A stretch of 51,432 nucleotides of DNA, from positions 1 to 51,432 of the forward strand of contig NZ_JPMX01000040.1 in NCBI RefSeq assembly GCF_000761485.1, read 5' to 3'. The notes beneath the pieces were generated by a model, which did not search any database, had not been told where the DNA came from, and was given only the letters and a program-made list of their open reading frames with translations. This document shows positions 11,610-33,769 of this stretch, in pieces (the stretch's first letter is position 1; the number at the start of each line of letters is the position of its first letter). Position numbers and translations under genes: made by a program. This DNA comes from Modestobacter caceresii (GTDB lineage: Bacteria; Actinomycetota; Actinomycetes; Mycobacteriales; Geodermatophilaceae).

Positions 11610-11930
11610 GTAGCTGCGCGGGATCCGCCGCCGTTCGCCCTGGTGCCGTTCGTGCAGGTCAGGTCGTCGCCGCGTCCGTCGGCGTCCGCCCCGGTACGCC
11701 GTCGTCCGGGCCGCGTTGCTGTACCGGTTGCTGTAATCGTGTCCGAGCCGAGGGGGCGGCGACCCTTCCGCTTGCGCGAGGGAGTGGCCTACCACAGGAC
11801 TCGGCCGCGCGTGGCTGAGCATCGCCTCGTCATGACCCGGCCGTGTCCAGCAGATCGGTCGCCGGCTCGCCCAGTGGGATTCCTGCGCCCTGCGCCTTCC
11901 ACGGACGACCCAGCGAGCAAGGGCAGGGCT
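11610..11930. other. Gene-less interval with a short direct repeat beside the tRNA half
   Basis: No recognisable protein is encoded. Two 9-bp direct repeats, GTTGCTGTA at 11715-11723 and 11727-11735, are separated by CCG. Short spaced repeats near a tRNA-derived core could be arm-type integrase sites, but this is speculative. Confidence 0.4.
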
Positions 11931-13445
11931 TCAGACCGGTGGCGCGGTGGCCAGCTCCGGGGCGGTGAGGGTCCGCGCTGAGTCGTACGCGCTGGGGACG
12001 ATCCCGCCGTCGGCGTCGAACACCATGACGGCCTGCCCGTCGTCGTGCGCCGGCCAGCCCGGGTCCTGGTCCCGCACAAAGGCGACGTACGCCCCGTGGA
12101 CCCGATCGGCGAGCTGCTGTGGTGCGCCGGGGCCGGCAACCCGGGTCACGTCGGGGTCATCGAGCAGGTCGAAGGCGAAGGGCACGTCCAGGCAGTGCTC
12201 GGCCACCCCGCTGACGGCCGATCGCCAGGCGAAGTCGTACACCCAGGTCGGCGCGGCGCCACGGCGCATCTCCAGCCAGTCCACGACCCTGCGACGGAAC
12301 ATGACGTCGCTGACGTAGCGGCCCATCACGTCGGCCGGGTGGTGGCCGGGCAGCACCCCGGCGAACCGGCGGGCCACCTCCGGCGCCACCCCGAGCGCGT
12401 CGAGCACCCCGGCGACGTCGTGCTCCTCGAACAAGTGCCGGAACGCGTGCGCGATCCCGCCGAACTCCTGCCGGGTGCTGCCCATCAGCAGGGGCACGTC
12501 GGCACCGGCACCCGCTTGCAACCCCTCCTCGACCGTGCCTGTCAGCAGGTCGCCGTCCACGACCGGTCCCAGCGGCAACCGGCCGTCCATCGAGCGCATC
12601 ACCGTGATCAACCCCTCGGCGGAGAGCTCCCCCATCGACGGCAGCCCCCAGCCCTGTGCGGCCAGCAGCGCCTCCTCGGTCACGCCGGCGAAGCCGGCCC
12701 GGTCCGGCGCGACCCCCAGCGCCGCGGCGATCCGTTGCGTCGTCGCCCGGGCGTCCTCCAGCGACACGTCGGCCGGAGCGCCGGACATCGAGACGACCCC
12801 GGTGAACAACCCGCGCGCCCGCGGCATCGTCAGCAGGGTCATCGCCGCGCCGCCACCGGCGGACTGGCCCGCGATGGTGACCCGCTGGGGATCACCGCCG
12901 AAGGAGCCGATGCTGTCCCGCACCCATTCCAGCGCGAGCAGCCAGTCCAGGACACCGCGGTTCGCCGGGGCATCGGGCAGCAAGCCGAAACCCTCGAACC
13001 CCAGCCGGTAGGACACCGACACCGTCACCACGCCGTCCCGGTTGAAGGCGGCGCCGTCGTACCAGGGGCTGGCCGGGGAACCGGCCACGTACCCGCCGCC
13101 GTGCACGTAGACCAGCACCGGCAGCGGCGTCTCCCCCGCCTCCGACGGGCGAGGGCGGGGCGTGAAGGCGTTGACGCACAGCACGTCCTCGCCCGGGACG
13201 CTGGGCTCGGGGATGGTGGTGATCTCCATCAGCGCCTTGCGCTGCGGGGTGGACCCGTACTGCAGTGCGTCCCGGACGCCGGACCACGGCGCTCGCCGAA
13301 CCGGCGCCTGGAACCGCAGGTCCCCGAACGGCGGCTCGGCGAACGGGATGCCCAGGAATGCAGCCGATCCTGCGCGCCACAGGCCGCGGACAGCTCCGGC
13401 GGGGGTCTCGACAACGACGTGCTCACCGGTCGGGGTGGGGCGCAT
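11931..13445 (-). CDS. Type-B carboxylesterase
   Basis: 504 residues, the usual length of an alpha/beta-hydrolase carboxylesterase. The oxyanion-hole motif HGGG is at 115-118, the nucleophile elbow GQSAGG has Ser195, and acid and base candidates follow in a Glu near residue 310 (TRQEFGG) and a His near 415 (EHCLDVPF). No signal peptide is visible, so it acts in the cytoplasm. ATG 13445 has GGAGG upstream. It is the last gene of the leftward operon, 27 bases after the GH1 gene, and probably removes acyl groups (acetyl, feruloyl-like or other esters) from the same imported glycosides. The exact ester is not deducible. Confidence 0.93.
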   Translation of the reverse strand: MRPTPTGEHVVVETPAGAVRGLWRAGSAAFLGIPFAEPPFGDLRFQAPVRRAPWSGVRDALQYGSTPQRKALMEITTIPEPSVPGEDVLCVNAFTPRPRPSEAGETPLPVLVYVHGGGYVAGSPASPWYDGAAFNRDGVVTVSVSYRLGFEGFGLLPDAPANRGVLDWLLALEWVRDSIGSFGGDPQRVTIAGQSAGGGAAMTLLTMPRARGLFTGVVSMSGAPADVSLEDARATTQRIAAALGVAPDRAGFAGVTEEALLAAQGWGLPSMGELSAEGLITVMRSMDGRLPLGPVVDGDLLTGTVEEGLQAGAGADVPLLMGSTRQEFGGIAHAFRHLFEEHDVAGVLDALGVAPEVARRFAGVLPGHHPADVMGRYVSDVMFRRRVVDWLEMRRGAAPTWVYDFAWRSAVSGVAEHCLDVPFAFDLLDDPDVTRVAGPGAPQQLADRVHGAYVAFVRDQDPGWPAHDDGQAVMVFDADGGIVPSAYDSARTLTAPELATAPPV

Positions 13446-13472
13446 GGCGGGTGTCCTCCAGGGGTGGTGGTG

Positions 13473-14666
13473 TCAGGGCAGGGCGTTGCCGCGCGCGACC
13501 GCGCCGAGCCAACGGGCGCTGGGCTTGACCGTCCGCGCGAAGGTGGCCCGGTCGACGGCGACCAGGCCGAAGGTGGGCCGGTAGCCGGCGACCCACTCGA
13601 AGTTGTCCAGCAGGCTCCAGTGGTAGTAGCCGCGCACGTCGACCCCGTCCGCGATCGCAGCGTGCACAGCACGCAGCGCACCCTCGGTGTAGTCGCGGCG
13701 CCGGTCGTCGTCGGCGGTGGCAATGCCGTTCTCGGTGACCAGCAGCGGCACGCCCGGCGCGCGTTCCGCGGCCGTGCGCAGCCCGACGCCGACGGCACCG
13801 GGGAAGTACTCCCACCCCGTCAGCGTCGTCTCCGTGCCCTCGGTGACCGACAACGGCCCTTCGGGGCCGACGAAGGTGCGCGTGTAGGCCTGGATCCCGA
13901 GCCAGTCGTCGTCGGCCGCCTCCTGCAGGAACCGGGTCTCCCGTGCACCGGCGTAGCGGGCGGTCTGCTCCTCGGCGCCGGGCAGCGGGGTGAACGCCTG
14001 CGTGGCGACCGCCCAGCCGACCTGCGGGCCGTCCCACGAGCGGACGATCTCAACCGCGCGGTGGTGGGCGCGGGCCAGCCCGTCGGCGATGTGCGGATCC
14101 GGGGCCGGCAGCCCGGCACCGCCGAAGGTGGTGTCCTGGCCCAGGTTCGCGAAGGCCGCGGTGATGTTGGGCTCGTTGATCGTGCAGACGTAGGGGACGT
14201 CGCGGGCGACGACCGGCTCGACGAACTCGGTGAACCGCGCGAAGCGGTCGGCTGCATCGGCCGCCGCCCACCCGCCCCGATCGGCGAACCACTGCGGCAG
14301 GGTGAAGTGGTTGAGGCTCACGTTGGGCACGACGCCGGCCTGCAAGCAGGTATCGACCATCCGCCGGTAGTGGTCGCGGGCGGCGCGGGAGAACTCCCCC
14401 GGAGCCGGCTCGATGCGGCTCCACTCCAGGCTGAACCGGTAGGAACCCAGCCCGAGGTCGGCCACGATCGCGACGTCCTCGGGGTAGCGGTGGTAGCTGT
14501 CGCAGGCGTCGCCGCTGGGCTCGGTCATGAACGTGCCGGGGGCGTGCTCCCGGGCCCACCAGTCGTTGTTGACGTTGCCGCCCTCGATCTGATGCGAGGA
14601 GGTGGCGGCGCCCCAGAGGAAGCCGTCGGGGAACCGCAGGACCCTGGGCTGGTCCGCGCTGGTCAT
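13473..14666 (-). CDS. GH1 family beta-glucosidase
   Basis: 397 residues, slightly shorter than typical GH1 enzymes (about 440-470). Signatures run in order: FPDGFLWGAATSSHQIEG near the N-terminus, acid/base Glu165 in TINEPN, nucleophile Glu312 in VTENGIAT, and a C-terminal YYHWSLLDNFEW substrate-binding motif. There is no export signal, so hydrolysis is intracellular. The ATG at 14666 overlaps the stop of the nucleoside-hydrolase gene by four bases, implying translational coupling. GH1 retains beta-glucosides, beta-galactosides and related substrates; the neighbouring GH2, GH3, GH43 and GH78 enzymes suggest it trims one sugar from a mixed glycoside. Confidence 0.95.
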   Translation of the reverse strand: MTSADQPRVLRFPDGFLWGAATSSHQIEGGNVNNDWWAREHAPGTFMTEPSGDACDSYHRYPEDVAIVADLGLGSYRFSLEWSRIEPAPGEFSRAARDHYRRMVDTCLQAGVVPNVSLNHFTLPQWFADRGGWAAADAADRFARFTEFVEPVVARDVPYVCTINEPNITAAFANLGQDTTFGGAGLPAPDPHIADGLARAHHRAVEIVRSWDGPQVGWAVATQAFTPLPGAEEQTARYAGARETRFLQEAADDDWLGIQAYTRTFVGPEGPLSVTEGTETTLTGWEYFPGAVGVGLRTAAERAPGVPLLVTENGIATADDDRRRDYTEGALRAVHAAIADGVDVRGYYHWSLLDNFEWVAGYRPTFGLVAVDRATFARTVKPSARWLGAVARGNALP

Positions 14667-15607
14667 GCCCGACCGTGCACCTGGAACTTGGCGTACATGT
14701 CCTCGAACATCAGCCGGTTGTCCAGCTGGGTGTAGACCCGCATCGGCCGCGCACCGGGAACGGGCGTGTACTGCCCCTCCGGGGTGATCCCGGGCGTCTC
14801 CCGGGTGACGTACCGGCTGGACGAGGGATCCGGCTCGAACGCCGACTGCAGCGCCGTCAGCAGCACCAGCGGGCTGTCGCCGAGGATGTAGGTCTCCCCC
14901 AGGTCGAACCCGTGCTGCCCGGCCATGGTCCGGACCCCATCCAGGGCCTCGTACAGCCATGCCCCCAGCGCACCGGCACCGCCCAGCCGCAGCTGCAGTT
15001 CGGCGAAGGAGGCGAGCGTCTGCCGGTAGGCGTCCCGGGGCACCAGCCAGACGGGGATCGTCGAGTCGCCGAACACGATCGAGGCGGCCAGCACGTCGAT
15101 GAGCAGGTTGTACTCGATCGGCATCGCACCGGGCGGCGGCTCCGCCAGACCCGGGTGTTCCGGGCCACCGATCCACACCAGCGTGAGCCGCTCGGCAATC
15201 CGCGGATCGAGCAGCCAGGCGCTGGCCACCTCGGTGAGCCCCGCGCCGGCGCAGACGAAGAGCGGGGTGTCGACGTCGGAGCGCATCGCCTCGGCGACCA
15301 GCGCCTCCGCGGCTGCCGACCGGACGGGCGTGGCCCGGTCGACCAGCCCGACATTGGACCCGGCGAGCACCGGGACGTCGTCGCGGCCGGCCAACGCGAG
15401 CACCTCACGAGCCCGCGCCGCGGCGTTGTCGGCGGTCGTGCCGGAGGGGTCGAAGGGGTCACCGGGCCGCAGATGCGAGCCGATGACCAGCCTCAGGTCG
15501 ACCGACGGGGACAGCGCGTGGTGCGCCAGCTGGACCAGCCCGTCCGGATCGCCGCTGAGGTCGTTGTCGACGATGACGCGCAGCCGTGGGCGGGCCGATG
15601 CGGTCAC
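14663..15607 (-). CDS. Nucleoside-hydrolase-superfamily N-glycosidase
   Basis: 314 residues from GTG 15607. The N-terminal metal-binding motif is DNDLSGDPDG rather than the textbook DTDPGxDD, a variant I associate with a subgroup of inosine/uridine-type hydrolases. The middle has FVCAGAGLTEVASAW and LVWIGG, matching the family core. The enzyme class cleaves N-ribosidic bonds, using calcium held by the Asp cluster. It lies between the TetR and GH1 genes in an operon otherwise devoted to glycosides, so its true substrate may be an unusual glycoside or a plant nucleoside conjugate rather than salvage nucleosides. Confidence 0.85.
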   Translation of the reverse strand: MTASARPRLRVIVDNDLSGDPDGLVQLAHHALSPSVDLRLVIGSHLRPGDPFDPSGTTADNAAARAREVLALAGRDDVPVLAGSNVGLVDRATPVRSAAAEALVAEAMRSDVDTPLFVCAGAGLTEVASAWLLDPRIAERLTLVWIGGPEHPGLAEPPPGAMPIEYNLLIDVLAASIVFGDSTIPVWLVPRDAYRQTLASFAELQLRLGGAGALGAWLYEALDGVRTMAGQHGFDLGETYILGDSPLVLLTALQSAFEPDPSSSRYVTRETPGITPEGQYTPVPGARPMRVYTQLDNRLMFEDMYAKFQVHGRA

Positions 15608-15617
15608 GGAGGCGCCC

Positions 15618-16226
15618 TCAGAGCTCGACGGTGAGCAGCGACTGGACGTAGCGGCGAACCTCGGCCGCCATGTCCACCGAACGCCGGTCGAGCAACCACT
15701 GCACCTGCAGCCCGTCCATCAGCGCGACCAGCTGGCGCGCTGCGCTGGCGGGCTCGGTGCCGGGTCGCAGGTCACCGGCCGCATCGACCGCCACGAAGGC
15801 GTCGGTGATGTACCGGATGACCCAGCTGTACCGGTCGACGAAATAGCCGTGGACCGGGTGGTCCAGCGCGGTCGCCTCCGCCGCCAGCACGGTGAAGAGC
15901 TCGACGAGCTCCGGCGTGCTGGCGTTGTACTCGACCAAGTTCAGCAGCGCGCGGATCTGGTCCAGACCGGCGACCGCCTCGAAGTCGAACCGCTGTCGGG
16001 ACTGCTCGTCGCGCCAGGCAAGCACTGCCTCGAGCAGGTGCGTCTTGCTCGGGAAGTGGTGCAGCACGCCGGCCTGGCTCAGCCCCACCCGCTCGGCGAC
16101 GTCGCGCAGCGAGCCCTTGTGGAAGCCGGCAGAGGAGAAGACCTCGACGGCGGCGTCCAGGATTTCCTGCCGGCGCGCCGCGGTCTTGGCGTACTCACCG
16201 CGTGGCCTGGATGTGATCGCCGTCAT
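15618..16226 (-). CDS. TetR-family regulator of the glycoside locus
   Basis: 202 residues. The HTH (about 17-65) contains RRQEILDAAVEVFSSAGF and LRDVAERVGLSQAGVLHHF, typical of TetR. The C-terminal domain ends with a region resembling the TetR_C of sugar- or lipid-related regulators. It opens the leftward operon and diverges from the transporter-glycosidase operon; the inverted repeat at 16259-16280 in the 115-base divergent gap is the obvious operator. Control of both operons by one effector, perhaps the imported glycoside or its aglycone, is inferred. TetR is an unusual choice here because LacI or ROK proteins commonly run such loci. Confidence 0.93.
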   Translation of the reverse strand: MTAITSRPRGEYAKTAARRQEILDAAVEVFSSAGFHKGSLRDVAERVGLSQAGVLHHFPSKTHLLEAVLAWRDEQSRQRFDFEAVAGLDQIRALLNLVEYNASTPELVELFTVLAAEATALDHPVHGYFVDRYSWVIRYITDAFVAVDAAGDLRPGTEPASAARQLVALMDGLQVQWLLDRRSVDMAAEVRRYVQSLLTVEL

Positions 16227-16258
16227 GGCCGCACCGTAGCGCGAAACATTTTCAAAAC

Positions 16259-16280
16259 AAACCTAGTGGTCGGTAGGTTT
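16259..16280. promoter_or_regulatory. Inverted repeat between the divergent glycoside operons, probable TetR operator
   Basis: AAACCTA (16259-16265) and TAGGTTT (16274-16280) form a 7-bp inverted repeat with an 8-base spacer. It lies 33 bases from the TetR start and 61 bases before the binding-protein start, inside an AT-rich patch (16243-16282) that stands out from the GC-rich surroundings and should hold both promoters. Confidence 0.7.
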
Positions 16281-16341
16281 TCCGGCTACGTTGTGCGCCA
16301 CGTCACCCCGCTGGGGGGTGCGCTCCCCCGGAGGTTCCACC

Positions 16342-17886
16342 GTGCTCGGAAACAAGAGGGTTGGCATCGCCGCCATCGCCCTGGCCGCCTCGTTGGTGAT
16401 GACCGCCTGCGGGTCCAGTGACGGCGGCGGCAGCGACGGCGGCGCAGAGGGCGGGGGCACCCTCACCCTGGGCTCCATCTTCGCGCCGCAGACGCTCGCG
16501 GCCAGCGGTGCCGAGTGGGCCAACGTCTCCCCGTACATCCAGTCGGTCTACGACTCGCTGCTGCGCGAGACGCCGGACGCCGAGGTGGAGCCCTGGCTGG
16601 CCACCGAGTGGTCCTACAACGAGGACAAGACCGTCCTCACCATGCAGCTGCGGGACGACGTCACGTTCACCGACGGCGAGAAGTTCACCGCCGACGTGGC
16701 TGCCCAGAACCTGCTCCGTTTCAAGGCCGGCACCTCGCCCAACGCCTCGTTCCTGGCCAGCGTCGCCGACGCCAAGGCCACCGACGAGTACACCCTCGAG
16801 ATCACGCTGACCGCACCGGACCCGGCGCTGCTCAACTACCTGGCGCAGAACGCCGGCGCCCAGGCCAGCCCGGCGACCTTCGCTGCGCCCGACGCCGCCA
16901 CGGACCCGGTCGGCTCCGGTCCCTACATCTTTAACGCCGACCGGACCGTCGTGGGCTCCAGCTACGTCTTCGACCGGAACCCGGAGTACTGGGCCGGCGC
17001 GGAGGAGCAGCACTACGACCAGGTCGTCATCAACGTCCTGGACAACTCCCAGGCCCAGCTGAGCGCCATCCAGGGTGGTCAGGTCAACGGCCTCAACCTG
17101 TTCGACAACTCGGCCCTCGACCAGATCGAGGGCGCGGGCTTCACCGCCTACCCGCACGAGCTGGACTGGCAGGGCCTGATCCTCTTCGACCGAGCGGGCA
17201 CGATGGCCCCCGCGCTCGGTGACGTGCGGGTCCGCCAGGCGATCAACCACGCGGTCGACCGAGACGCCCTGCTCAAGGCGGTGGTCCAGGGCTACGGCAC
17301 CGCGACCACCCAGGTCTTCGACGAGAGCTCGGCGGCGTACGTCGAGGAGCTCGACGAGCGCTACCCCTACGACCCGGAGCTGGCCAGGGAACTGCTGGCC
17401 GAGGCGGGCTACGCCGAGGGCTTCACGCTCTCCATGCCCAACGTCAACCTCGGCAGCACGACGGCGGCCGACCTGACCGCCCAGTACCTCGGGGACGTCG
17501 GCATCACCGTGCAGTACGACCAGCTCTCGCTGCAGGAAGCCATCGCCGCCCTGTTGGCACCCAAGTACCCGGCGTCGTGGATCCAGTTGCAGTCGGACCC
17601 GACCGCCTGGCAGCTGGCCAACTTCGCGCTCACGCCGACCGCGTCGTGGAACCCGTTCCGCGTCGAGGACCCAAAGGTCGCCGAGCTGGTCTCGACGCTG
17701 CAGAGCGGCACGGAGGAGGAGGCCGAGCAGGCCGGCCAGGAGCTCAACGAGTACATCGTCGAGCAGGCCTGGTTCGCGCCGTATTACCGCGTCGAGGGCA
17801 CCTTCGTCGCCGACGGGGACACCGACGTGGTGCACCAGAGCAACAACGCCTACCCGCTCCTGCAGTACATCACGCCCAACGGCTGA
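16342..17886 (+). CDS. Family 5 extracellular solute-binding lipoprotein of an ABC importer
   Basis: 514 residues. GTG 16342 is chosen because GGAGG (16330-16334) lies seven bases upstream. The signal peptide ends in a lipobox-type MTAC with Cys23, so the protein is lipid-anchored outside the membrane. The body has SBP_bac_5 landmarks: TLTLGSIFAPQTL at the N-terminus, VYDSLLRETPDAEVEPWLATEW, GSGPYIF, and VRVRQAINHAVDRDALL. This family binds peptides, but also nickel and, in several bacteria, oligosaccharides. Sitting at the head of five glycosidase genes, it most likely captures a glycoside or oligosaccharide. A hairpin separates it from the permease genes. Confidence 0.95.
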   Translation: MLGNKRVGIAAIALAASLVMTACGSSDGGGSDGGAEGGGTLTLGSIFAPQTLAASGAEWANVSPYIQSVYDSLLRETPDAEVEPWLATEWSYNEDKTVLTMQLRDDVTFTDGEKFTADVAAQNLLRFKAGTSPNASFLASVADAKATDEYTLEITLTAPDPALLNYLAQNAGAQASPATFAAPDAATDPVGSGPYIFNADRTVVGSSYVFDRNPEYWAGAEEQHYDQVVINVLDNSQAQLSAIQGGQVNGLNLFDNSALDQIEGAGFTAYPHELDWQGLILFDRAGTMAPALGDVRVRQAINHAVDRDALLKAVVQGYGTATTQVFDESSAAYVEELDERYPYDPELARELLAEAGYAEGFTLSMPNVNLGSTTAADLTAQYLGDVGITVQYDQLSLQEAIAALLAPKYPASWIQLQSDPTAWQLANFALTPTASWNPFRVEDPKVAELVSTLQSGTEEEAEQAGQELNEYIVEQAWFAPYYRVEGTFVADGDTDVVHQSNNAYPLLQYITPNG

Positions 17887-17894
17887 CCCGAGCA

Positions 17895-17930
17895 GGGATG
17901 GGCCGCCACCCCTAGGCGGCGGCCCATCCC
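17895..17930 (+). terminator. Intercistronic hairpin after the binding-protein gene
   Basis: Positions 17895-17907 pair perfectly with 17918-17930 (13 bp) around a 10-base loop. Located between the binding protein and the first permease, such structures usually protect the upstream message or attenuate the downstream genes, giving excess binding protein over membrane components. Confidence 0.7.
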
Positions 17931-17966
17931 GTCCACCTCCTCCTTCCTGACCCCCTGGGGAATCCC

Positions 17967-18908
17967 TTGCTTCGTTTCGTGCTCCGGCGTCTGGTCTCCG
18001 GTGTCGTCCTGGTGGGCGTCCTGTCCACGCTCGCCTTCTTCCTGCTGTACGCCGGCAGCGGGGACATCGCCCGCACGATCCTGGGCCAGCAGGCGACGCA
18101 GGAGACCGTGGACCGGCTGACCCAGCAGCTCGGCCTGGACCGCCCGGTCCTGAGCCGGTTCGGCCAATGGGTGTCCGGCGCCGTCCGTGGCGACTTCGGC
18201 ACCTCCTGGTTCACCAGCCAGCCGGTCACCGACGCGATCCTCAGCCGCCTCGCCGTCACCCTGTCCCTCGTCATCGGCGCGACGGTCGTGACCGCGATCG
18301 TGGCAGTCGTGCTCGGGGTCCTGGCCGCCACCCGCGGCGGGGTCGTCGACCGCGTCGTCCAGATCGGGTCCGTGGTCGCCGCTGCGGTCCCCGGCTTCCT
18401 GGTGGCCATCGGACTGGTCATGGTCTTCGCCATCAGCCTCCGCATCTTCCGGCCGACCGGGTACGAGGCGTTGGCCGACTCCCCCACCGGCTGGCTGGCC
18501 ACCGTCACGCTGCCGGTGATCGCGCTCTCGCTGGCCAGCATCGCGGGTGTCGCGCAGCAGATCCGCGGCGCGATGCTGGACGCGCTACGCAAGGACTACG
18601 TGCGCACGCTGCGCAGCCGCGGGCTGCCGGAGAGCCGGATCGTGTACGAGCATGTGCTCCGCAACGCCGCCGGTCCCGCGCTGTCGGTCCTGGGCCTGCA
18701 GTTCATCGGCCTGCTCGGCGGCGCGGTCATCATCGAGCAGATCTTCGCCATCCCGGGCCTCGGTCAGGTCGCCGTCGGCGCGACCGCCCGGGGCGACATC
18801 CCGCTGGTGATGGGCCTGGTCGTCGTGACCGCCGTCATCGTCGTCGTCCTGAACATCATCGTCGACCTGCTGCAGGGTTGGCTGAACCCGAAGGTGCGCC
18901 AGTCATGA
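17967..18908 (+). CDS. DppB-type ABC importer permease
   Basis: 313 residues starting at TTG 17967 with a GGGGAA site upstream. The N-terminus LRFVLRRLVSGVVLVGVLSTLAFF is the usual first helix of DppB/OppB permeases. Six membrane segments are expected. The cytoplasmic coupling (EAA) loop contains ALRKDYVRTLRSRGLPESRI, which contacts the ATPases. The C-terminus overlaps the next start by four bases (ATGA). It pairs with the downstream DppC-like permease half. Confidence 0.93.
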   Translation: MLRFVLRRLVSGVVLVGVLSTLAFFLLYAGSGDIARTILGQQATQETVDRLTQQLGLDRPVLSRFGQWVSGAVRGDFGTSWFTSQPVTDAILSRLAVTLSLVIGATVVTAIVAVVLGVLAATRGGVVDRVVQIGSVVAAAVPGFLVAIGLVMVFAISLRIFRPTGYEALADSPTGWLATVTLPVIALSLASIAGVAQQIRGAMLDALRKDYVRTLRSRGLPESRIVYEHVLRNAAGPALSVLGLQFIGLLGGAVIIEQIFAIPGLGQVAVGATARGDIPLVMGLVVVTAVIVVVLNIIVDLLQGWLNPKVRQS

Positions 18909-20728: not shown

Positions 20729-21588
20729 GCGACCGCCTGCTCGAGGTCGAGGACCTGGTCGTCGAGTACCCGGTCAAGGGCCGGCGCGCCGCGCCGCTCC
20801 GCGTGCTGAAGGACGTCTCGGTGGACATCCGCGCCGGCGAGTGCGTGGGCCTGGTCGGCGAGTCGGGCTCGGGCAAGACCACCCTGGGCCGCGCAGTGCT
20901 CGGACTGGCCCCGGTGACCGGGGGCAGCATCCGGTACGGCGGCCGCGACATCAGCCACCTGTCCCGCAGGGAACGGCGCGCGCTGTCGGCCGACATCCAG
21001 GTGGTCTTCCAGGACCCCTACACGTCGCTGAACCCGGCGATGACGATCGAGCAGATCCTCGCCGAACCGCTCACCGTCCGGGATGTCGACCGCGCCGAGG
21101 CCAGGCGCCGGGTGCGCGACCTGCTCGACCAGGTGCAACTGCCGGCCGACGCCGGCAACCGGCTGCCACGCGAGTTCTCCGGTGGGCAGCGGCAGCGGAT
21201 CGCGATCGCCCGGGCGCTGGCGCTGGAGCCTCGGCTGATCGTCTGCGACGAGCCGGTCTCCGCCCTGGACCTCTCCACCCAGGCCCGGGTGCTGGAACTG
21301 TTCAAGGAGATCCAGGAGCGCACGGGGGTCGCCTACCTCTTCGTCTCCCACGACCTGGCCGTCGTACGGCACCTGTCGCACCGGGTCGCGGTCATGTACC
21401 GCGGCGAGATCGTGGAGTGGGGCGACGGCGACCAGGTCACCAGCCGGCCCCAGCACCCTTACACCCAGAAGCTGCTGCTGGCAGCTCCCGTGCCCGACCC
21501 CGTGAAGCAGCAGCAGCGCCGCGCGGAGCGCCGGCGCCTGCTGACCGCCCAGCGTCAGGCCGGCCAACCCGCCGGCGCCCTGAGCTGA
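20725..21588 (+). CDS. DppF-type ABC importer ATPase
   Basis: 287 residues with a complete ATPase set: Walker A GESGSGKTT (45-53), Q-loop VFQDPYTSLNP, signature FSGGQRQR near 150, Walker B LIVCDEP near 170 and H-loop SHDLAVV. The C-terminal HPYTQKLLLAAPVPDP segment is the oligopeptide/dipeptide-type ATPase extension. It is the partner of the ATPase domain fused to the permease, giving the heterodimeric pair usual for peptide-type importers. ATG 20725 overlaps the previous stop. Confidence 0.94.
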   Translation: MSDRLLEVEDLVVEYPVKGRRAAPLRVLKDVSVDIRAGECVGLVGESGSGKTTLGRAVLGLAPVTGGSIRYGGRDISHLSRRERRALSADIQVVFQDPYTSLNPAMTIEQILAEPLTVRDVDRAEARRRVRDLLDQVQLPADAGNRLPREFSGGQRQRIAIARALALEPRLIVCDEPVSALDLSTQARVLELFKEIQERTGVAYLFVSHDLAVVRHLSHRVAVMYRGEIVEWGDGDQVTSRPQHPYTQKLLLAAPVPDPVKQQQRRAERRRLLTAQRQAGQPAGALS

Positions 21589-21632
21589 CCAGTCCTCCCC
21601 CGCCACCCGCCCGCGCTGCAGAGAACGGACCC

Positions 21633-25642: not shown

Positions 25643-25692
25643 GCCGGCGCCTCCCCGTCCTGCCCGCACCACCCCGAGGAGCTCGTACCCGC

Positions 25693-28110
25693 ATGCGCCG
25701 AACCCCGTTCACCGCCGGCTGGCAGACCCGGCCGAAGGCCAACCCGTTCGCCGAGCTCACCGGCGGCGCCCCGCCCTGGGAGACGGTCACCCTCCCGCAC
25801 GACGCCACGCTGGGGCGGCAGCGGGGGCCGGAGCACGGCGCGGCCTCCGGCTACACCCCCGGCGGCACGTACGAGTACCGGACGACGCTGGCGGCACCCG
25901 TGCAGTGGCGGGACCGCACGGTGCTGCTGGACTTCGAGGGCGTCTACCGTTCGGCGAGCGTCTACCTCAACGGCGCGCTGGTCGCGCAGCAGGCTGCGGG
26001 CTACACCGGTTTCGCCGTGCCGCTGGATGGCCACCTGCGGCCCGGTCAGGCCAACGAGATCCGCGTCGAGTGCCGGGCGCACGCCGACTCCCGCTGGTAC
26101 GCGGGTGCCGGTGTCCACCGCCCGGTCCACCTCGTCGTCGGCCCGCTACTGCACATCGCCCTGGACGGCGTCCGGGTCACCACCCCGGACGTCGAAGGTG
26201 ACCTGGCGCTGGTCGAGGTGGCGACGACCATCGAGAACGACGGCCGCGGACTGCGCACGGTCACCGTCGGCACGCAGCTGCGCGACGCCGCCGGCACCGT
26301 GGTGGGCACCGACCGGGTCCCGGTCAGCGTGCTGCCTGGTGAGCCCGCGGTCGTGCGCCAGCGGATCGCGGTGCGGGAACCGGCGCTGTGGGAACCGGAC
26401 TCCCCCGCGCTGTACACCGCCGCCGTCGCGCTCGTCGACGGCGACGAGCGGATCGACGACGACACCGTCTCCTTCGGCATCCGCAGCCTCTCCGTCGACC
26501 CGCACCGTGGGCTGCGGGTCAACGGGGAGCCGGTGCTGCTGCGCGGCGCCTGCATCCACTCCGACAACGGCGTGCTCGGCGCCGCCGCGATCGACCGGGC
26601 CGACGAGCGCCGGGTCGAGCTGCTCAAGCACGCGGGCTTCAACGCGCTGCGCAGCGCGCACAACCCGATGAGCCGGGCGATGCTCGAAGCCTGCGACCGG
26701 CTCGGCGTCCTGGTCATGGACGAGCTCACCGACGTCTGGACCCAGGGCAAGACCGACTTCGACGCCGCACTCACCTTCTCGCACGAGTGGGAGCGTGACC
26801 TGGCGGCGCTGGTCCGCAAGAACGTCAACCACCCCAGCGTGATCATGTACTCGATCGGCAACGAGATCCCCGAGGTGGGCCGGCCGGCCGGCGCGTTGTG
26901 GTCGCGGCGGCTGGCCGAGCGGGTGCGGGAGCTGGACCCCACCCGGCTGGTGACCAACGGCGTCAACGGCACGCTGAGCACCCCGTTCGACCCGGAGACG
27001 ATGGCCCTGCCGTCCGCCGACGAGGTCGGGATCAACACGATGATGGCCACGATGGGCGATCTCATGACGTCCATCGCGGCGTCGGAGGCGGTGGGCAACG
27101 CGACCGCCGAGACCTTCGGGGTGCTGGACGTGGCCGGGATGAACTACATGGACTCCCGCTACGAGGCCGACCGCGAGCGCTATCCGAACCGGGTCATCGT
27201 CGGCAGCGAGACCTTCCCGGCGCAGATCGACCGGCTCTGGCGCCAGGTACAGGACCTGTCGCACGTCATCGGCGACTTCACCTGGACCGGGTGGGACTAC
27301 CTCGGCGAGGCGGGCATCGGGCGGGTGTCCGACGCCGAGGACCCCGCCGCGGCGCAGTTGGCCGCGCCCTGGCCGTGGCTGGCCGCCTGGTGCGGCGACA
27401 TCGACATCACCGGGCAGCGCCGGCCCGCGTCGTACTACCGGGAGATCGTCTTCCGCCTGCGCCGCGAGCCCTACCTCGCCGTCGAGCGTCCCGAGCGGCA
27501 CGGCCGGGAGCAGGTGCTCTCCCCGTGGTCGTGGACCGACACCGTGGGCAGCTGGAGCTGGACCGGCGCGGAGGGCCGTCCGGTCACCGTCGAGGTCTAC
27601 AGCGACGCCGACGAGGTGGAGCTGCTGCAGGACGGCCGGTCGCTGGGCACCGCCCCGGCTGGGCAGGAGTGCCGCTTCCGGGCCACCTTCCAGGTCACGT
27701 ACACCCCCGGCGAACTGACCGCGGTGGCCCGCACGGGCGGCAAGGAGACCGGGCGCACCACCCTGCGGTCGGCGACCGGCCCCATGCACCTCACCGCGAC
27801 CGCCGACCGGGACGTCATCCGCGCCGACGACACGGACCTGGCCTTCGTCGACCTGTCGATCACCGACGCCGCCGGCACCGTCGTCCTCGGCACCGACCGG
27901 GAGCTGACGGTCGCCGTCGCCGGGCCTGCCGTGCTGCAGGGCCTGGGCAGCGCCGCGCCGGCGACCGAGGAGTCCTACCTCGATGACGTGCACGCCACCT
28001 TCGACGGCCGCGCGCTGGCCGTCGTCCGGCCCACCGGGCCCGGAGAGATCACCGTGACCGCGACCGCTCCCGGGTGTGCCTTGGTGACCGTCCGACTGGA
28101 GGCCCGATGA
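25693..28110 (+). CDS. GH2 family beta-galactosidase-like enzyme
   Basis: 805 residues. An N-terminal jelly-roll sugar-binding domain (WETVTLPHDATL, VLLDFEGVYRSASVYLNG) and an immunoglobulin-like domain precede the TIM barrel. Acid/base is Glu391 in SIGNEIPE and the nucleophile Glu506 in VGSETFP. C-terminal beta-domains (about 610-800) include DUF4982-like and bacterial Ig-like segments. GH2 covers beta-galactosidase, beta-glucuronidase, beta-mannosidase and others; the barrel sequence favours the beta-galactosidase-like branch. It is the only glycosidase gene in the operon not overlapping its predecessor (50-base gap). Confidence 0.93.
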   Translation: MRRTPFTAGWQTRPKANPFAELTGGAPPWETVTLPHDATLGRQRGPEHGAASGYTPGGTYEYRTTLAAPVQWRDRTVLLDFEGVYRSASVYLNGALVAQQAAGYTGFAVPLDGHLRPGQANEIRVECRAHADSRWYAGAGVHRPVHLVVGPLLHIALDGVRVTTPDVEGDLALVEVATTIENDGRGLRTVTVGTQLRDAAGTVVGTDRVPVSVLPGEPAVVRQRIAVREPALWEPDSPALYTAAVALVDGDERIDDDTVSFGIRSLSVDPHRGLRVNGEPVLLRGACIHSDNGVLGAAAIDRADERRVELLKHAGFNALRSAHNPMSRAMLEACDRLGVLVMDELTDVWTQGKTDFDAALTFSHEWERDLAALVRKNVNHPSVIMYSIGNEIPEVGRPAGALWSRRLAERVRELDPTRLVTNGVNGTLSTPFDPETMALPSADEVGINTMMATMGDLMTSIAASEAVGNATAETFGVLDVAGMNYMDSRYEADRERYPNRVIVGSETFPAQIDRLWRQVQDLSHVIGDFTWTGWDYLGEAGIGRVSDAEDPAAAQLAAPWPWLAAWCGDIDITGQRRPASYYREIVFRLRREPYLAVERPERHGREQVLSPWSWTDTVGSWSWTGAEGRPVTVEVYSDADEVELLQDGRSLGTAPAGQECRFRATFQVTYTPGELTAVARTGGKETGRTTLRSATGPMHLTATADRDVIRADDTDLAFVDLSITDAAGTVVLGTDRELTVAVAGPAVLQGLGSAAPATEESYLDDVHATFDGRALAVVRPTGPGEITVTATAPGCALVTVRLEAR

Positions 28111-29954
28111 GCACCAACCGACGAACGGCGGTCTCCCCCGAGGGGATCCGCTTCCGCGACCTGGACGGCGACGGGGTGATGGCACCCTACGAGGACGCGC
28201 GGCTGTCGGCCGAGGAGCGGGTGGCCGACCTGGTCCCGCGGCTGTCGCTGGCCGAGAAGGCCGGCCTGCTGTTCCACACGATCATCGGCGTGGGCGATCC
28301 GGGCGCACACGACGTGCCGGCCGGGATTAGCCCCTACTCGCCCCGGGAGCTGGTCGGCGAACGGCTGATCAACCACCTCAACGTGCACGCGCTGCCCTCG
28401 CCGCGGGAGACGTCGCGCTGGGTGAACGCGGTGCAGGAGCTGGCCGAGCAGACCCCACACGGGATCCCGGTCACCTTCTCCACCGACCCGCGGCACTCGT
28501 TCACCGAGAACAGCGGCGTCTCTTTCGAGGCCGGGTCTCTGTCCCAGTGGCCCGAGGGCCTGGGCCTGGCCGCGATCGGCAGCGCCGAGCGGGTCCACGA
28601 GTTCGCCGATGTGGTACGCCGCGAATACCTGGCGCTGGGGCTGCGGGCCGCGCTGCACCCGCAGGTCGACCTGGCGACCGAGCCGCGGTGGGGCCGCCAG
28701 GCGCAGGCCTTCGGGCAGGACGCCGGAACCGCGTCGGCGTTCGTCGCCGCCTACCTGCAGGGCATGCAGGGCGAGCGGCTCGGGCCGGACAGCGTGGCCT
28801 GCACGACCAAGCACTTCCCCGGCGGGGGCCCGCAGCTCGACGGCGAGGACCCGCACTTCCCCTACGGCCGGGAGCAGGTGTACCCGGGCGGCCGGTTCGC
28901 CGAGCACCTGGAGCCGTTCCGCGCGGCGATCGCGGCCGGGACCAGCGGGATGATGCCGTACTACGGGATGCCCGTCGGGCTGCACCTGGACGGGGAGCCG
29001 GTCGAGGAGGTCGCGTTCAGCTTCAACCGGCGGATCATCACCGACCTGCTGCGCGAGGAGCTCGGCTACGACGGCGTCGTGCTCACCGACTGGGGCCTGC
29101 TCACCGACGTCGAGGTCTTCGGCAAGCCCTTCCCGGCCCGCGCCTGGGGCGTGGAGCACCTGTCCCCGCTGGAGCGAGCGGCCCGGATCCTGGACGCCGG
29201 CGCCGACCAGTTCGGTGGCGAGACGCGCACCGATCTGGTGCTGGAGCTGGTGACCAGCGGCCGGGTGGAGGAGGCGCGGATCGACGGTGCGGTGCGCCGC
29301 CTGCTGCTGGTGAAGTTCTCCCTCGGCCTGTTCGACGACCCCTACGTCGACGAGGACGAGGCCGAGCGCGTGGTCGGGGCCGCGGAGTTCCGCGCCGCCG
29401 GGCACCGCGCGCAGGCCGAGTCGGTCACCGTGCTGGGCAACGACGCGGTCCTGCCGTTCCCGCCGGGCGGACGGCTCTACCTGGACGGCATCGACCCGGC
29501 GGTAGCAGCCGGGTACGGGGAGGTCGTCGACGACCCGGGCTCGGCCGATCTGGCCGTCGTCCGGCTGCAGGCACCGTTCGAGCCGCGGGACGAGTACTTC
29601 CTGGAGGCCATGTTCCACCAGGGGTCCCTGGACTTCCCCGCCGAGGTGGTCGAGCGCATCACCGCGCTGGCCGCCCGGGTGCCCATGGTCCTGGACGTCA
29701 CGCTGGACCGGCCTGCCGTCCTCACCCCGTTCGACGGGGTGGTCGCCGCGCTCACCGCCACCTTCGGCACCTCCGACGCCGCACTGCTCGACGCGCTCAC
29801 CGGCCGCATCGCCCCGTGCGGGCGGCTGCCGTTCGAGCTCCCCCGCTCCATGGACGCCGTGCGGGCCAGCCGCTCCGACGTGCCATCGGACACCGCCGAT
29901 CCGCTGTACCCCCACGGGCACGGCTTCGATCTGCAGGGACACCCGGAGCAGTGA
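28107..29954 (+). CDS. Second GH3 glycosidase, compact form
   Basis: 615 residues. It starts with an EF-hand-like RDLDGDGVMAPYED segment, then LSLAEKAGLLFH. The barrel carries STDPRHSF, KHFPGGGPQ followed by DGEDPHFPYG, and the nucleophile Asp328 in VLTDW. It lacks the PA14 insert and the fibronectin-like end of the first GH3, so it is an independent subfamily rather than a tandem duplicate. The C-terminal second domain is short. It has no signal peptide and overlaps its neighbours by four bases on both sides. A beta-glucosidase or beta-xylosidase role is likely. Confidence 0.93.
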   Translation: MSTNRRTAVSPEGIRFRDLDGDGVMAPYEDARLSAEERVADLVPRLSLAEKAGLLFHTIIGVGDPGAHDVPAGISPYSPRELVGERLINHLNVHALPSPRETSRWVNAVQELAEQTPHGIPVTFSTDPRHSFTENSGVSFEAGSLSQWPEGLGLAAIGSAERVHEFADVVRREYLALGLRAALHPQVDLATEPRWGRQAQAFGQDAGTASAFVAAYLQGMQGERLGPDSVACTTKHFPGGGPQLDGEDPHFPYGREQVYPGGRFAEHLEPFRAAIAAGTSGMMPYYGMPVGLHLDGEPVEEVAFSFNRRIITDLLREELGYDGVVLTDWGLLTDVEVFGKPFPARAWGVEHLSPLERAARILDAGADQFGGETRTDLVLELVTSGRVEEARIDGAVRRLLLVKFSLGLFDDPYVDEDEAERVVGAAEFRAAGHRAQAESVTVLGNDAVLPFPPGGRLYLDGIDPAVAAGYGEVVDDPGSADLAVVRLQAPFEPRDEYFLEAMFHQGSLDFPAEVVERITALAARVPMVLDVTLDRPAVLTPFDGVVAALTATFGTSDAALLDALTGRIAPCGRLPFELPRSMDAVRASRSDVPSDTADPLYPHGHGFDLQGHPEQ

Positions 29955-32557
29955 CCGATTCGACCGTCACCGTCGTCCGGCTGCGGACCGCCGACGACGC
30001 CGGCCTCGTCGCCACCGCGAGTGCGCAGCCCCGGCTGTCCTGGTCGCTGGCCGCCGACCGGCCGGGCGTGCTGCAGCGCGGCTACGAGGTGCAGGTGGCC
30101 GCCGACCCGGGGTTCACCGACCCGAAGTCCAGCGGCGAGGTGCACTCCGACGTGGTCGTTGATCATGACTGGCCGGCTCCGCCGCTGGCCAGCCGCCAGG
30201 TGGCCTTTTGGCGAGTCCGCGTCCGGACCGACGCCGGGTGGACGGCGTGGAGCCGGCCCGCCCGCGTGGAGGCCGCGCTCCTGCTCGACGCCGACTGGAC
30301 CGCCCGGCCGGTGACCGTGCCCAGTGACCGCGGGCGGGCCGAGGCAGGGCCGGTGCCGCTGGTCCGGCGGGAGTTCGAGCTGACGGCCGAGCCGGTGTCG
30401 GCGCGGCTGTACGTCACCGCGCTCGGCGTGCACCGGACCTCGCTGAACGACCGCTCGGTCGGCGACGAGCTGCTGGAGCCGGGCTGGACCAGCTACCCCG
30501 GCCGGCTGCTGTACGCGACGCACGACGTCACCGCCCTGCTGCAGGCCGGCCGCAATGTGCTCAGCGCCGCGGTCGGTGACGGCTGGTACCGCGGCAACCT
30601 CGGCTGGGAGGGCGTGCGCAACTTCTACGGCGACGCCTTGGCGCTCCTCGCCCAGCTGGAGGTGACCTGCGCCGACGGCAGCACGGTCATCGTCGGCACG
30701 GACGCGAGCTGGCGCGGCGGGTACGGCGCCGTCCGGGCTGCCGACCTCTACGACGGGTGCGACGTCGACCTGCGCGCGGAGCCGGCCGGCTGGCACTCCG
30801 CAGGCTTCGACGACACCGGCTGGGAGGCGGTGGACACCCTGCCCCTGCCGGAGGGGCTGGGTCAGCGCGCCCATCCGCCGGTGCGCGTGCTGGAGGTGAT
30901 CGAGCCGGCGGTGACGCCCCTGCCCGACGGGATCCTGTCGGTGGATACCGGGCAGAACCTGACCGGCTGGCTGCGGCTGCGGGTGACCGGCCCGGCCGGT
31001 GCCCGGGTGACCGTACGGCATGCCGAGGTGCTGGACGAGCGGGGTCGGCTGATCACCACGCTGCTGCGCTCGGCCCGGGCCACCGACAGCTACGTGCTGG
31101 CCGGCGGCACCGTGGAGCTCGAGCCGGAGTTCACCTTCCACGGTTTCCGGTACGCCGAGATCGAGGCCGCACCGGAGGTGACCGTGGACCGGGTCGAGGT
31201 CGCCGTCGTCGCGAGCGACCTGCGGCGCACCGGCTCCGATCCCCGGGTGGACCAGCTGTTCTCCAACGTAATCTGGTCCCAGCGGGACAACTTCCTGTCC
31301 ATCCCGACCGACTGCCCACAGCGGGACGAGCGGCTGGGGTGGACCGGCGACATCATGGCCTTCGCGCCGACCGCGGCGGCCAACTTCGACAGCCGGGCCT
31401 TCCTGGACAGCTGGCTCACCGATGTCGGCCTCGAACAGCGGCCCAGCGGTGGGGTGCCGATGGTGGTCCCCGACTGTCTGAGTTTCGAGTTCCCCGCGCC
31501 GCTGCCGAAGGCCGATGGAGCCGCGGGCTGGGCCGATGCGGCCACCGTCGTCCCCACCGCCCTGTTCCGCGCCGCCGGCTCTCGCGACCTGCTGCGCCGC
31601 CACTTCCGGCTGATGCAGCGCTGGGTCGACTACGTCGCCGGGCTGCTGGGCGAGGACGGCACCTGGAGCGGGTACATGCAGCTCGGCGACTGGCTGGACC
31701 CCAACGCGCCGCCGGAGCAGCCGTTCCGGTCGATCACCGACTCCGACTACGTCGCGACCGCCTTCGTCGCGCACAGCGCCAGGCTGCTGGCCCAGGCCTG
31801 CCGGGAACTGGGGGCCGACGAGGGCGCACAGCGGTACGCCGCCCTGGGCGACCGGGTCGCGCGGGCGGCCTGGGGGAAGTGGGCCGAGCACGCCCGCACC
31901 ACCCAGACCGGCTGCGCGCTGGCCATCGAGTTCGGTCTCGCCCCGGCCCAGGAGCGGGCCGGTGTCGGGGAGGCGCTGGCCGCGCTGGTGCGGGCCAACG
32001 GCGGCCGGGTCGGCACCGGCTTCCTCGGGACGCCGTTCGTGCTGCCCGCGCTGACGGCGACCGGCCACCTGGGGGCGGCTCACCAGCTGCTGCTGAACGA
32101 GGACTGCCCGGGCTGGCTCTACCAGGTCGGGCACGGTGCGACCACCACCTGGGAGCGCTGGGACGGCATCCTCCCCGACGGCACGGTGCACCCCGGCGAC
32201 ATGGCCGACGGGTCGGCGATGTCATCGTTCAACCACTATGCCTACGGGGCGGTGGCCTCCTGGCTCTACGAGTCCGTCGCCGGGCTCGCACCGGCCGCGC
32301 CCGGCTACCGCGAGATCCGGATCGCCCCCCAGCCCGGCGGTGGGCTCGCCCGGGCGTCGGCGGCCATCGAGACCGAGTACGGCCGGGCATCGGTGGGCTG
32401 GTCGCTCACCGGCCCGGTCCTGACCGTCGACGTCGAGCTGCCGCCGGGCACCACCGGCCGTTTCACCACCCCGGCCGGCTGGTCCTCCGCAGAACCGGTC
32501 GCCGAGCTCGGCTCCGGGCACCACTCGGTCGTCCTCACCCAGGGAGCAAACACGTGA
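29951..32557 (+). CDS. GH78 alpha-L-rhamnosidase
   Basis: 868 residues with a GH78 layout: N-terminal fibronectin-III-like domain (LSWSLAADRPGVLQRGYEVQV), two jelly-roll modules, an alpha/alpha-barrel and a C-terminal beta-domain. Catalytic landmarks are Glu460 in DCPQRDERLGWTGD (general acid region) and Glu735 in TTTWERWDG (general base). No export signal. The enzyme removes terminal alpha-linked rhamnose, typical of plant flavonoid and saponin glycosides and of some polysaccharide side chains. It gives the best clue to the natural substrate of this locus. Confidence 0.95.
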   Translation: MTDSTVTVVRLRTADDAGLVATASAQPRLSWSLAADRPGVLQRGYEVQVAADPGFTDPKSSGEVHSDVVVDHDWPAPPLASRQVAFWRVRVRTDAGWTAWSRPARVEAALLLDADWTARPVTVPSDRGRAEAGPVPLVRREFELTAEPVSARLYVTALGVHRTSLNDRSVGDELLEPGWTSYPGRLLYATHDVTALLQAGRNVLSAAVGDGWYRGNLGWEGVRNFYGDALALLAQLEVTCADGSTVIVGTDASWRGGYGAVRAADLYDGCDVDLRAEPAGWHSAGFDDTGWEAVDTLPLPEGLGQRAHPPVRVLEVIEPAVTPLPDGILSVDTGQNLTGWLRLRVTGPAGARVTVRHAEVLDERGRLITTLLRSARATDSYVLAGGTVELEPEFTFHGFRYAEIEAAPEVTVDRVEVAVVASDLRRTGSDPRVDQLFSNVIWSQRDNFLSIPTDCPQRDERLGWTGDIMAFAPTAAANFDSRAFLDSWLTDVGLEQRPSGGVPMVVPDCLSFEFPAPLPKADGAAGWADAATVVPTALFRAAGSRDLLRRHFRLMQRWVDYVAGLLGEDGTWSGYMQLGDWLDPNAPPEQPFRSITDSDYVATAFVAHSARLLAQACRELGADEGAQRYAALGDRVARAAWGKWAEHARTTQTGCALAIEFGLAPAQERAGVGEALAALVRANGGRVGTGFLGTPFVLPALTATGHLGAAHQLLLNEDCPGWLYQVGHGATTTWERWDGILPDGTVHPGDMADGSAMSSFNHYAYGAVASWLYESVAGLAPAAPGYREIRIAPQPGGGLARASAAIETEYGRASVGWSLTGPVLTVDVELPPGTTGRFTTPAGWSSAEPVAELGSGHHSVVLTQGANT

Positions 32558-33306
32558 CCGGCCGCCTCACCGGCAGGACTGCCCTCGTGACCGGCGCCGC
32601 GGCCGGCATCGGCCGGGCCGTCGCCGACCGGTTCGTCGCCGAGGGAGCCCGGGTGGCCTACGCCGACCGGGACACTGCCGGTGCCCAGGCGGCGGCCACC
32701 GCCGCGACCGCCCGGGCGGTGCCGATGGACGTCACCGACGAGTCGGCTGTCGTGGCCGGCTTCGCCGCGCTCGCCGCCGACGGCTGGGTGCCCGACGTGG
32801 TCGTGGTCAACGCCGGGGTGCAGCTGTTCGGCCAGGACGCCGAGATCGCCGACCTCGACCTCGACGTGTGGCGCCGCACCCACGAGGTGAACCTGACCGG
32901 AGCGTTCCTGTCGATGAAGCATGCCGTTCGCGGGATGCTGACGATCGGCGGCGGGTCGATCGTGCTCACCGGCAGCCCGACCGCCGTGCGTGGCGAGGGG
33001 CGCGACTTCATTGCGTACGCCTCGTCCAAGGCCGGCATGCACGGGCTCGGTCGCACGGTCGCCGCCGCCTACGCCGACCGCAGCATCCGGGTCAACACGG
33101 TGGTGCCGCCCTACACCGAGACCGGCCTGGTCAGCACCATCGCGACCGACCCCGCCGCCCGGGCGGCCATCGTCGGGCGCATCCCGATGGGCCGGCCCGG
33201 CACCGTGGCCGACCTCGAGGGCGTCTACGTGTTCCTCGCCAGCGATGAGTCGACGTTCGCCACAGGGGGCACGTTCGCCGTGGACGGCGGGATGACAACG
33301 CTCTAA
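32554..33306 (+). CDS. Short-chain dehydrogenase/reductase
   Basis: 250 residues. Classical SDR with TGAAAGIG (13-20), NAG (86-88), Asn113, Ser141 and YASSK (Tyr155, Lys159); the C-terminal AVDGG closes the fold. GTG 32554 overlaps the rhamnosidase stop by four bases, making it the last coupled gene. It may oxidise a released sugar such as rhamnose or galactose to the lactone, or act on an aglycone hydroxyl. Sugar dehydrogenase is only a hypothesis from context. Integrase remnants begin about 90 bases downstream. Confidence 0.93.
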   Translation: MTGRLTGRTALVTGAAAGIGRAVADRFVAEGARVAYADRDTAGAQAAATAATARAVPMDVTDESAVVAGFAALAADGWVPDVVVVNAGVQLFGQDAEIADLDLDVWRRTHEVNLTGAFLSMKHAVRGMLTIGGGSIVLTGSPTAVRGEGRDFIAYASSKAGMHGLGRTVAAAYADRSIRVNTVVPPYTETGLVSTIATDPAARAAIVGRIPMGRPGTVADLEGVYVFLASDESTFATGGTFAVDGGMTTL

Positions 33307-33762: not shown

Positions 33763-33769
33763 CTGGCAG

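Follow-up and report, generated by a model that had tools for sequence, protein, structure and literature searches.

A TetR-linked locus of Modestobacter caceresii with a fused Opp-type importer, probably serving the uptake and stripping of small plant glycosides

The window analysed here is a whole stretch of 51,432 nucleotides from Modestobacter caceresii (contig NZ_JPMX01000040.1), and between positions 11931 and 33306 it carries 14 genes in which an importer of the kind usually labelled as a peptide transporter lies among glycoside hydrolase (GH) genes. We read this set as a TetR-controlled locus for the uptake and intracellular stripping of small plant glycosides, and put the probability of this reading at a little above 0.6. 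From the gene content, order and families, their conservation and a palindrome we infer the cargo class, the bond cut by each enzyme, repression and the inducer as follows. The solute-binding protein (SBP) and the Opp-type ABC importer, which contains an OppC-OppD fusion (OppCD), would carry an intact rhamnose-bearing glycoside into the cell, where the expected targets are rhamnose for GH78, xylose or arabinose for GH43, galactose-type residues for GH2 and glucose for GH3a, GH3b and GH1. The esterase would take off acyl groups, the nucleoside-hydrolase-family protein (NH) a furanosyl residue, and the short-chain dehydrogenase/reductase (SDR) would oxidise a sugar set free. The TetR protein on the palindrome at 16259-16280 would repress both operons until the glycoside or a breakdown product binds. 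Import of an intact, rhamnose-bearing glycoside followed by its deglycosylation in the cell had been the core of the original prediction, and gene linkage supports it. Parts of such a locus are already known; no glycoside locus combining a fused Opp importer with NH and SDR appeared among the matches listed in literature searches, which covered open-licence papers. The features are:

11931-13445, minus strand: type-B carboxylesterase, 504 aa, with a GQSAG motif (Pfam, motif)
13473-14666, minus strand: GH1, 397 aa (short), with TINEP and TENG motifs (Pfam, NCBIfam, motifs)
14663-15607, minus strand: nucleoside-hydrolase-family protein (NH), 314 aa, candidate O-furanosidase (Pfam, model)
15618-16226, minus strand: TetR-family regulator, 202 aa (Pfam, NCBIfam)
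16259-16280, no strand: probable TetR operator, AAACCTA-N8-TAGGTTT (palindrome)
16342-17886, plus strand: SBP_bac_5 solute-binding protein, probably a lipoprotein (Pfam; a longer form from a TTG start at 16291 is possible)
17967-18908, plus strand: OppB/DppB-type permease (Pfam, NCBIfam)
18905-20728, plus strand: OppC permease-OppD ATPase fusion, 607 aa (Pfam, NCBIfam)
20725-21588, plus strand: OppF ATPase (Pfam, NCBIfam)
21633-24101, plus strand: GH3a, full-length relative of BcpE2 (PDB 7pjj) (Pfam, PDB match)
24098-25642, plus strand: GH43 with GH43_C2, beta-xylosidase/arabinofuranosidase type (Pfam, PDB match)
25693-28110, plus strand: GH2, beta-galactosidase-like (Pfam, NCBIfam, PDB match)
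28107-29954, plus strand: GH3b, 615 aa, near the PDB 9ul7 beta-glucosidase (Pfam, PDB match)
29951-32557, plus strand: GH78 alpha-L-rhamnosidase family (Pfam, PDB match)
32554-33306, plus strand: SDR, 250 aa, corrected start, in a clade of SDRs from apionate-type operons (motif, tree)

The importer belongs to the Opp/Dpp type, having an SBP_bac_5 protein, two BPD permease domains and two ABC ATPases with oligo_HPY tails (Pfam), the tail scoring 31.9 bits in OppF and 23.4 bits, under the cut-off of 27.1, in OppCD. Oligopeptide/nickel transporters are the named models that match best, as would be expected of a true peptide importer that happens to neighbour glycosidase genes; the NCBIfam scores shown for SBP, OppB, OppCD and OppF, however, all lie under the curated cut-offs, and the importer shares one operon of overlapping genes with the glycosidases. 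Relatives of the OppCD fusion occur in 33 of 394 genomes of the class (own genome included), at 43 places. Of the 42 places outside the own genome we took 20, the best-scoring apart from one (L060), as a test set, and compared them with 20 lower-scoring SBP5 loci, hand-picked from the matches of a 39-genome SBP search, which are unmatched for taxon and distance because their taxa differ from those of most test loci; a locus counted as fused where a single tblastn alignment spanned >85% of OppCD. Within the fetched stretches a homologue of a window-type GH was present in 20/20 fused-importer loci and in 8/20 controls (Fisher P 4.5e-5), and a related TetR in 14/20 against 0/20 (Fisher P 3.3e-6). 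Twelve of the 20 controls themselves have a fused OppCD, including all eight with GHs, and the eight unfused ones are all without GHs. Since the core recurs and GH linkage stands at 20/20 against 8/20, the "peptide" importer of the window most likely carries glycosides, those of small plant compounds being its likeliest cargo. Import of peptides by a transporter merely adjacent to the glycosidases is very improbable, and pure peptide import was rejected on the GH linkage in all 20 fused-importer loci. If the glycoside reading is true, an importer clade labelled as peptide/nickel transporters would let plant glycosides into actinobacterial cells, and present annotations would overlook which actinobacteria eat or detoxify plant compounds. 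Among the literature matches listed, no paper on an actinobacterial ABC importer for flavonoid glycosides came up.

An OppB tree of 51 rows from 55 loci, to which six of the eight unfused controls contributed rows (L202 and L210 are without any OppCD match), places the window in a seven-row clade (100/98) with the congener G008, G245 (L175), L162, L219, L176 and L178. GH78 is present in six of these seven loci, the exception being L175. Another importer group, of families f31 and f33, pairs with GH3a and GH1. Genus labels were inferred from DNA similarity, g88 being Microbacterium and f33/g41 Streptomyces.

The core also recurs when GH3b is followed. Relatives of this enzyme occur in 31 of the 394 class genomes, own included, and in four of the 80 named loci surveyed (the best 80 of at least 577) Opp genes stand beside it: Herbiconiux daphne L143, Agreia sp. 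PsM10 L151, Microbacterium aurantiacum L162 and Candidatus Agrococcus pullicola L168, the last on a contig that begins inside OppB. In many of the remaining named loci one or two TetR homologues lie close to GH3b. In M. aurantiacum a TetR gene is divergent to SBP-OppB-OppCD-OppF-GH3b-GH78. The same seven core genes, a divergent TetR, SBP, OppB, OppCD, OppF, GH3b and GH78, are found in identical order and at 41-63% identity on a conjugative plasmid of Arthrobacter sp. NicSoilB11 (NZ_AP024659.1 104897-118579); in contrast to the window, the plasmid lacks GH3a, GH43 and GH2 between OppF and GH3b, and has no GH1, NH or SDR. There the core runs on into a GMC oxidoreductase, a C-glycoside deglycosidase beta (CGDB) protein annotated DUF6379 and an annotated sugar phosphate isomerase, for which Pfam gave no match at the chosen limit. 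In a sister importer locus of G008 (GH3b 75%), CGDB and an AP_endonuc_2 domain form one fused protein, accompanied by oxidoreductases of the GMC and Gfo/Idh types and by a ROK protein, and G007 holds a counterpart of this locus, also with CGDB; in all, CGDB is present in 3 of 39 genomes. Clusters with CGDB-type genes are described as deglycosylating flavonoid C-glycosides (PMC8563793), and glycoside 3-oxidases are described in PMC10646112; a term search for "transporter" in main texts on C-glycoside deglycosylation, including these two, found none. This linkage of importer relatives to C-glycoside genes is the best hint to the cargo class. The window locus itself was rejected as a C-glycoside system: no CGDB/CGDA or GMC 3-oxidase gene was matched within the window, and CGDB was not found in the own genome.

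Among the enzymes, GH3a aligns with 7pjj over residues 9-820 (645 bits); this structure is BcpE2 of Streptomyces scabiei, described as active on salicin, arbutin, scopolin, monolignol glucosides and linamarin and as stripping glucose from many plant heterosides (PMC9426481). The match is near full-length; BcpE2 is, however, a single enzyme and not such a locus. The closest PDB matches of the others are the beta-glucosidase 9ul7 for GH3b, 6gsz and 3w5m for GH78, and the beta-xylosidase 5z5d and the arabinofuranosidase BoGH43A for GH43. GH2, GH3b and GH78 are adjacent (25693-32557), and the same three families stand side by side in the "trisaccharide utilisation" clusters of Arthrobacter sp. S41 and Glutamicibacter halophytocola S2 (PMC9597252, PMC6473145), the likeness being one of gene family and adjacency; the substrate there is a small plant glycoside. 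In S2 these families are described as stripping solanine and chaconine (PMC9597252), and the window could accordingly be pictured as a saponin or steroidal-glycoalkaloid locus in which GH2-GH3b-GH78 is the counterpart of galA-gluA-rhaA, a special case of small-plant-glycoside stripping. We consider this narrower version unlikely: no sterol-degradation gene was identified nearby, and a term search of the main text on S2 (PMC9597252) found no "transporter". In the window the trio is embedded in a 14-gene locus with an importer, TetR, GH43, a second GH3, GH1, esterase, NH and SDR. Sphingobium RC1 likewise has clustered GH3 and GH78 genes, there saponin-active (PMC10653915), but its enzymes have predicted signal peptides, whereas none is evident in the window, which in addition has an ABC importer.

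A broader competitor is that hemicellulose or pectin side-chain oligosaccharides, such as arabinoxylan, rhamnogalacturonan or arabinogalactan fragments, are imported and dismantled in the cell. Such substrates are commonly served by GH2, GH3, GH78 and a GH43 of the beta-xylosidase/arabinofuranosidase type, and several related importer loci have GH20, GH43 or GH2 and are without C-glycoside genes. Yet the 14 genes include no uronic-acid enzyme, sugar kinase, isomerase or secreted depolymerase, one near importer relative runs on into C-glycoside genes, GH78 is kept in six of the seven loci of the importer clade, and GH3a resembles a heteroside glucosidase. On this balance oligosaccharides are a possible but somewhat doubtful cargo. 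Several observations nonetheless weigh against small plant glycosides. Oligosaccharides, too, are served by GH1, GH2, GH3 and GH43; the locus holds no aglycone-degrading gene, and no relation is apparent for the flanking genes identified, which encode a YhgE/Pip-like membrane protein, an M23 peptidase, a two-component pair, a P450, a penicillin-binding protein and zinc dehydrogenases; and the 39-genome search found no CGDB in the own genome. The GH matches are weak in three of the 20 test loci, namely L177 and L191 (GH2, 25%) and L175, whose GH3a match covers 12% of the length in the locus comparison and has 54% identity by blastp. No window-type GH was found in the fetched stretches of the fused controls L196, L199, L200 and L206, nor in those of the fused loci L021 and L022, next to which the neighbouring L020 and L023 have GH matches. 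The eight GH-positive controls form a single clade within the genus in the OppB tree and hence count as one event. In four f31/f33 loci (L179, L181, L183 and L187) the importer is accompanied by GH20, and as this group pairs with GH3a, GH1 and GH20 the cargo differs across the importer clade. Finally, GH3b also keeps company with other transporters, with an MFS protein in Kineococcus L126 and, on Arthrobacter plasmids, with an MFS protein and a LacI-type regulator in NtRootC7 (L220) and with a CUT1-type sugar importer and LacI in ERGS1:01 (L221).

The four GH20 loci share a divergent TetR with GH3a, GH1 and GH20 near OppF, and their cargo may contain N-acetylhexosamine. Five Arthrobacter strains from tobacco roots (H14-H18; L220 is AP024638.1) have relatives of GH3b (47%) on plasmids of about 160.6 kb, and on the one examined, typed as conjugative, the genes beside GH3b encode a LacI-type regulator and an MFS transporter; three Clavibacter michiganensis plasmid records (H2, H11 and H12) also have relatives (51-57%) in the search listing.

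In the congener G008 the gene order is kept for 12 of the 14 genes, so that the order is indeed conserved in a relative. Identities are 83% for NH, 73% for TetR, 62% for SBP, 74% for OppB, 76% for OppCD, 84% and 94% for OppF (a match split by the fetch boundary), 88% for GH3a, 83% for GH43, 88% for GH2, 87% for GH3b, 80% for GH78 and 86% for SDR. A second NH (53%) precedes the SDR there. The GH1 slot is occupied by a 331-aa Gfo/Idh-type oxidoreductase, and the esterase is reduced to a remnant, matched in two short segments that cover 14% (at 61%) and 16% (at 75%) of its length, which places both outside the constant core. The idea of one fixed system thus does not hold, as elsewhere the core alone recurs. 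In an SBP search of 39 genomes, own included, identity above 40% was seen besides the window in G008 only, among the matches listed.

The earlier view of NH and SDR as unusual company has to be modified, since the pair recurs in several other loci and is probably not stray. NH scores 52.8 bits with the Pfam model IU_nuc_hydro (cut-off 34.2), and its structural model (pLDDT 86.6) matches known NHs with Foldseek probability 1.00 and TM about 0.7, at 15-23% identity among the matches listed. Residues D14, D16, D20, D22, T125, E165, N167 and D244 are invariant in 12 aligned relatives, and we take them as counterparts of the residues that hold metal and sugar in known NHs. A leaving-group His before the C-terminal metal Asp is an NH trait, although not one common to all NH groups; this position is an invariant Gly243 (Gly243-Asp244) in 12/12 aligned members. 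With the metal and sugar residues invariant and Gly in the His position, the furanose site looks preserved and the handling of the nucleobase altered. NH (E up to 1e-45) occurs in 5 of the 394 class genomes, own included, and NH and SDR homologues lie close together in G008, on contig C1 of the own genome (SDR 86%; NH 38% and 83%), in Frondihabitans L131 (SDR 61%, NH 55%, with GH3b) and in G174 of the Microbacteriaceae. The G174 operon comprises a Dak1-Dak2 kinase, RpiB, TIM, AP_endonuc_2, a PGDH_C dehydrogenase, SDR (68%), a relative of ApnL and NH (59%), and adjoins an Opp importer with divergent TetR, plus GH2 and GH3b. Its ApnL relative matches the D-apionate lactonase model (NF049900) at E 3e-59, with 201 bits against a cut-off of 750, and the operon presumably reads as D-apiose oxidation via apionate to erythrulose phosphate.

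Relatives of ApnL occur in 6 of the 394 genomes, three of which are among the five NH genomes (hypergeometric P 2e-5); two of these three belong to the same genus, and counted by genus two are shared of four and three among 138 (P 0.0019). SDR is present in four of the six ApnL loci, and in the SDR tree a clade of eight (100/100) unites these four with the SDRs of the window, G008, C1 and L131, while outside this clade the best SDR among the loci fetched reaches 41% over 186 residues. The six loci (L224 and L234-L238) have a recurrent operon of Dak, RpiB, AP_endonuc_2, PGDH_C and ApnL type, with TIM in most and SDR in four, fewer of these being detected in L235. Because homologues of both flank an apionate-lactonase-type gene in G174, the linkage suggests that NH is a furanosidase and SDR a sugar dehydrogenase, possibly for apiose. 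The furanosidase role is plausible and apiose as its sugar is a guess, and we regard as rather unlikely the full proposal, in which an O-furanosidase of NH fold would release a furanosyl sugar (D-apiose being the likeliest) from plant glycosides and the SDR would be the matching D-apiose dehydrogenase, beside a misnamed importer. Against the apiose assignment, ApnL and the PGDH-like (possibly ApnO-type) gene were found in 0 of 39 genomes, own included; as a positive control the ApnL query gave matches in G174, G247 and G424, and the PGDH-like query matched only in the fetched ApnL/SDR stretches. G174 is, moreover, the only genome with physical NH-ApnL linkage. The window thus shares its SDR clade with the apionate-type operons (NF049900), to which an NH homologue is linked in G174, but its genome lacks ApnL and the PGDH-like gene, and a complete apiose pathway in this organism is weakened as an idea. 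The pairing itself has exceptions: NH stands without SDR in L112, L229, L230 and the C-glycoside loci of G007/G008, and SDR without NH in L234, L235 and L236; the NHs of G247 (L225) and G337 (L228) are without clear glycoside context, and only two of the 80 named GH3b loci (L112 and L131) have NH. That both are unrelated passengers is unlikely all the same. If true, an NH-fold furanosidase would be a releasing enzyme of unexpected structural type for apiose- or ribose-bearing glycosides.

Control by TetR, also foreseen earlier, is supported by linkage. The spacer between TetR and SBP holds AAACCTAGTGGTCGGTAGGTTT at 16259-16280, a 22-bp palindrome with two perfect 7-bp arms, which is probably the TetR operator; the site is unique in the own genome at up to two mismatches, and the G008 spacer carries it with a single central change. 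Exact AAACCTA is present in 10 of 15 TetR/SBP spacers inspected and the form AAACCTA-N8-TnnGTTT in eight, L179, L182 and L184 being near relatives within this set; neither is found in the spacers of L162, L176, L178, L181 and L143, and the Arthrobacter plasmid spacer has a different palindrome, CGGATGATCATCCG. The arrangement fits TetR as a local repressor of the divergent promoter.

As to the gene calls, the claim of 14 intact genes at a divergent promoter was confirmed: six-frame open reading frames (ORFs) and codon-position GC, of coding type in every gene, give two divergent operons with one shared TetR-type promoter region, and Pfam and NCBIfam uphold each family that had been named. The left operon (minus strand) has four genes, TetR, NH, GH1 and esterase, and the right one (plus strand) ten, SBP_bac_5, OppB, the OppCD fusion, OppF, GH3a, GH43, GH2, GH3b, GH78 and SDR. 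Taking the SDR start as 32554, six of the nine right-operon junctions are 4-base overlaps, and the largest gap is the 80 bp between SBP and OppB. This start, a GTG overlapping the GH78 stop, is probably the right one since in-frame residues upstream lengthen the Rossmann motif. The SBP may start at GTG 16342, from which its N-terminal hydrophobic stretch ends in VMTAC, with no match to the strict lipobox pattern. The GH1, GH2, GH3, GH43 and GH78 domains exceed their family cut-offs and have family-typical catalytic motifs. In the first 50 residues the 15-residue Kyte-Doolittle maximum is at most 1.1 for the enzymes and 2.3-2.8 for SBP and permeases, which agrees with the predicted absence of signal peptides from the glycosidases. 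Consensus scans of the locus found no promoter, and terminator-like sites are absent from 11600-16500 and number 3 in 17800-33800, against a chance expectation of 1.6.

The own genome has a second glycoside island on contig C1, spanning L194 (C1:55000-74999) and L226 (C1:76089-96088). It has GH1 / SBP-OppB-OppCD-OppF-GH78-GH78, followed by GH43, NH, SDR (86% to the window SDR), a GH2 in the form of two overlapping ORFs, another GH43 (70%), a GH3a-like gene, a GDSL esterase, a zinc dehydrogenase, NH (83%) and MFS. Elsewhere in the window, a c-di-AMP riboswitch (Rfam RF00379, 67.2 bits) lies at 7560-7711 on the minus strand, directly upstream of an M23-peptidase-type gene at 6241-7548 on the same strand.

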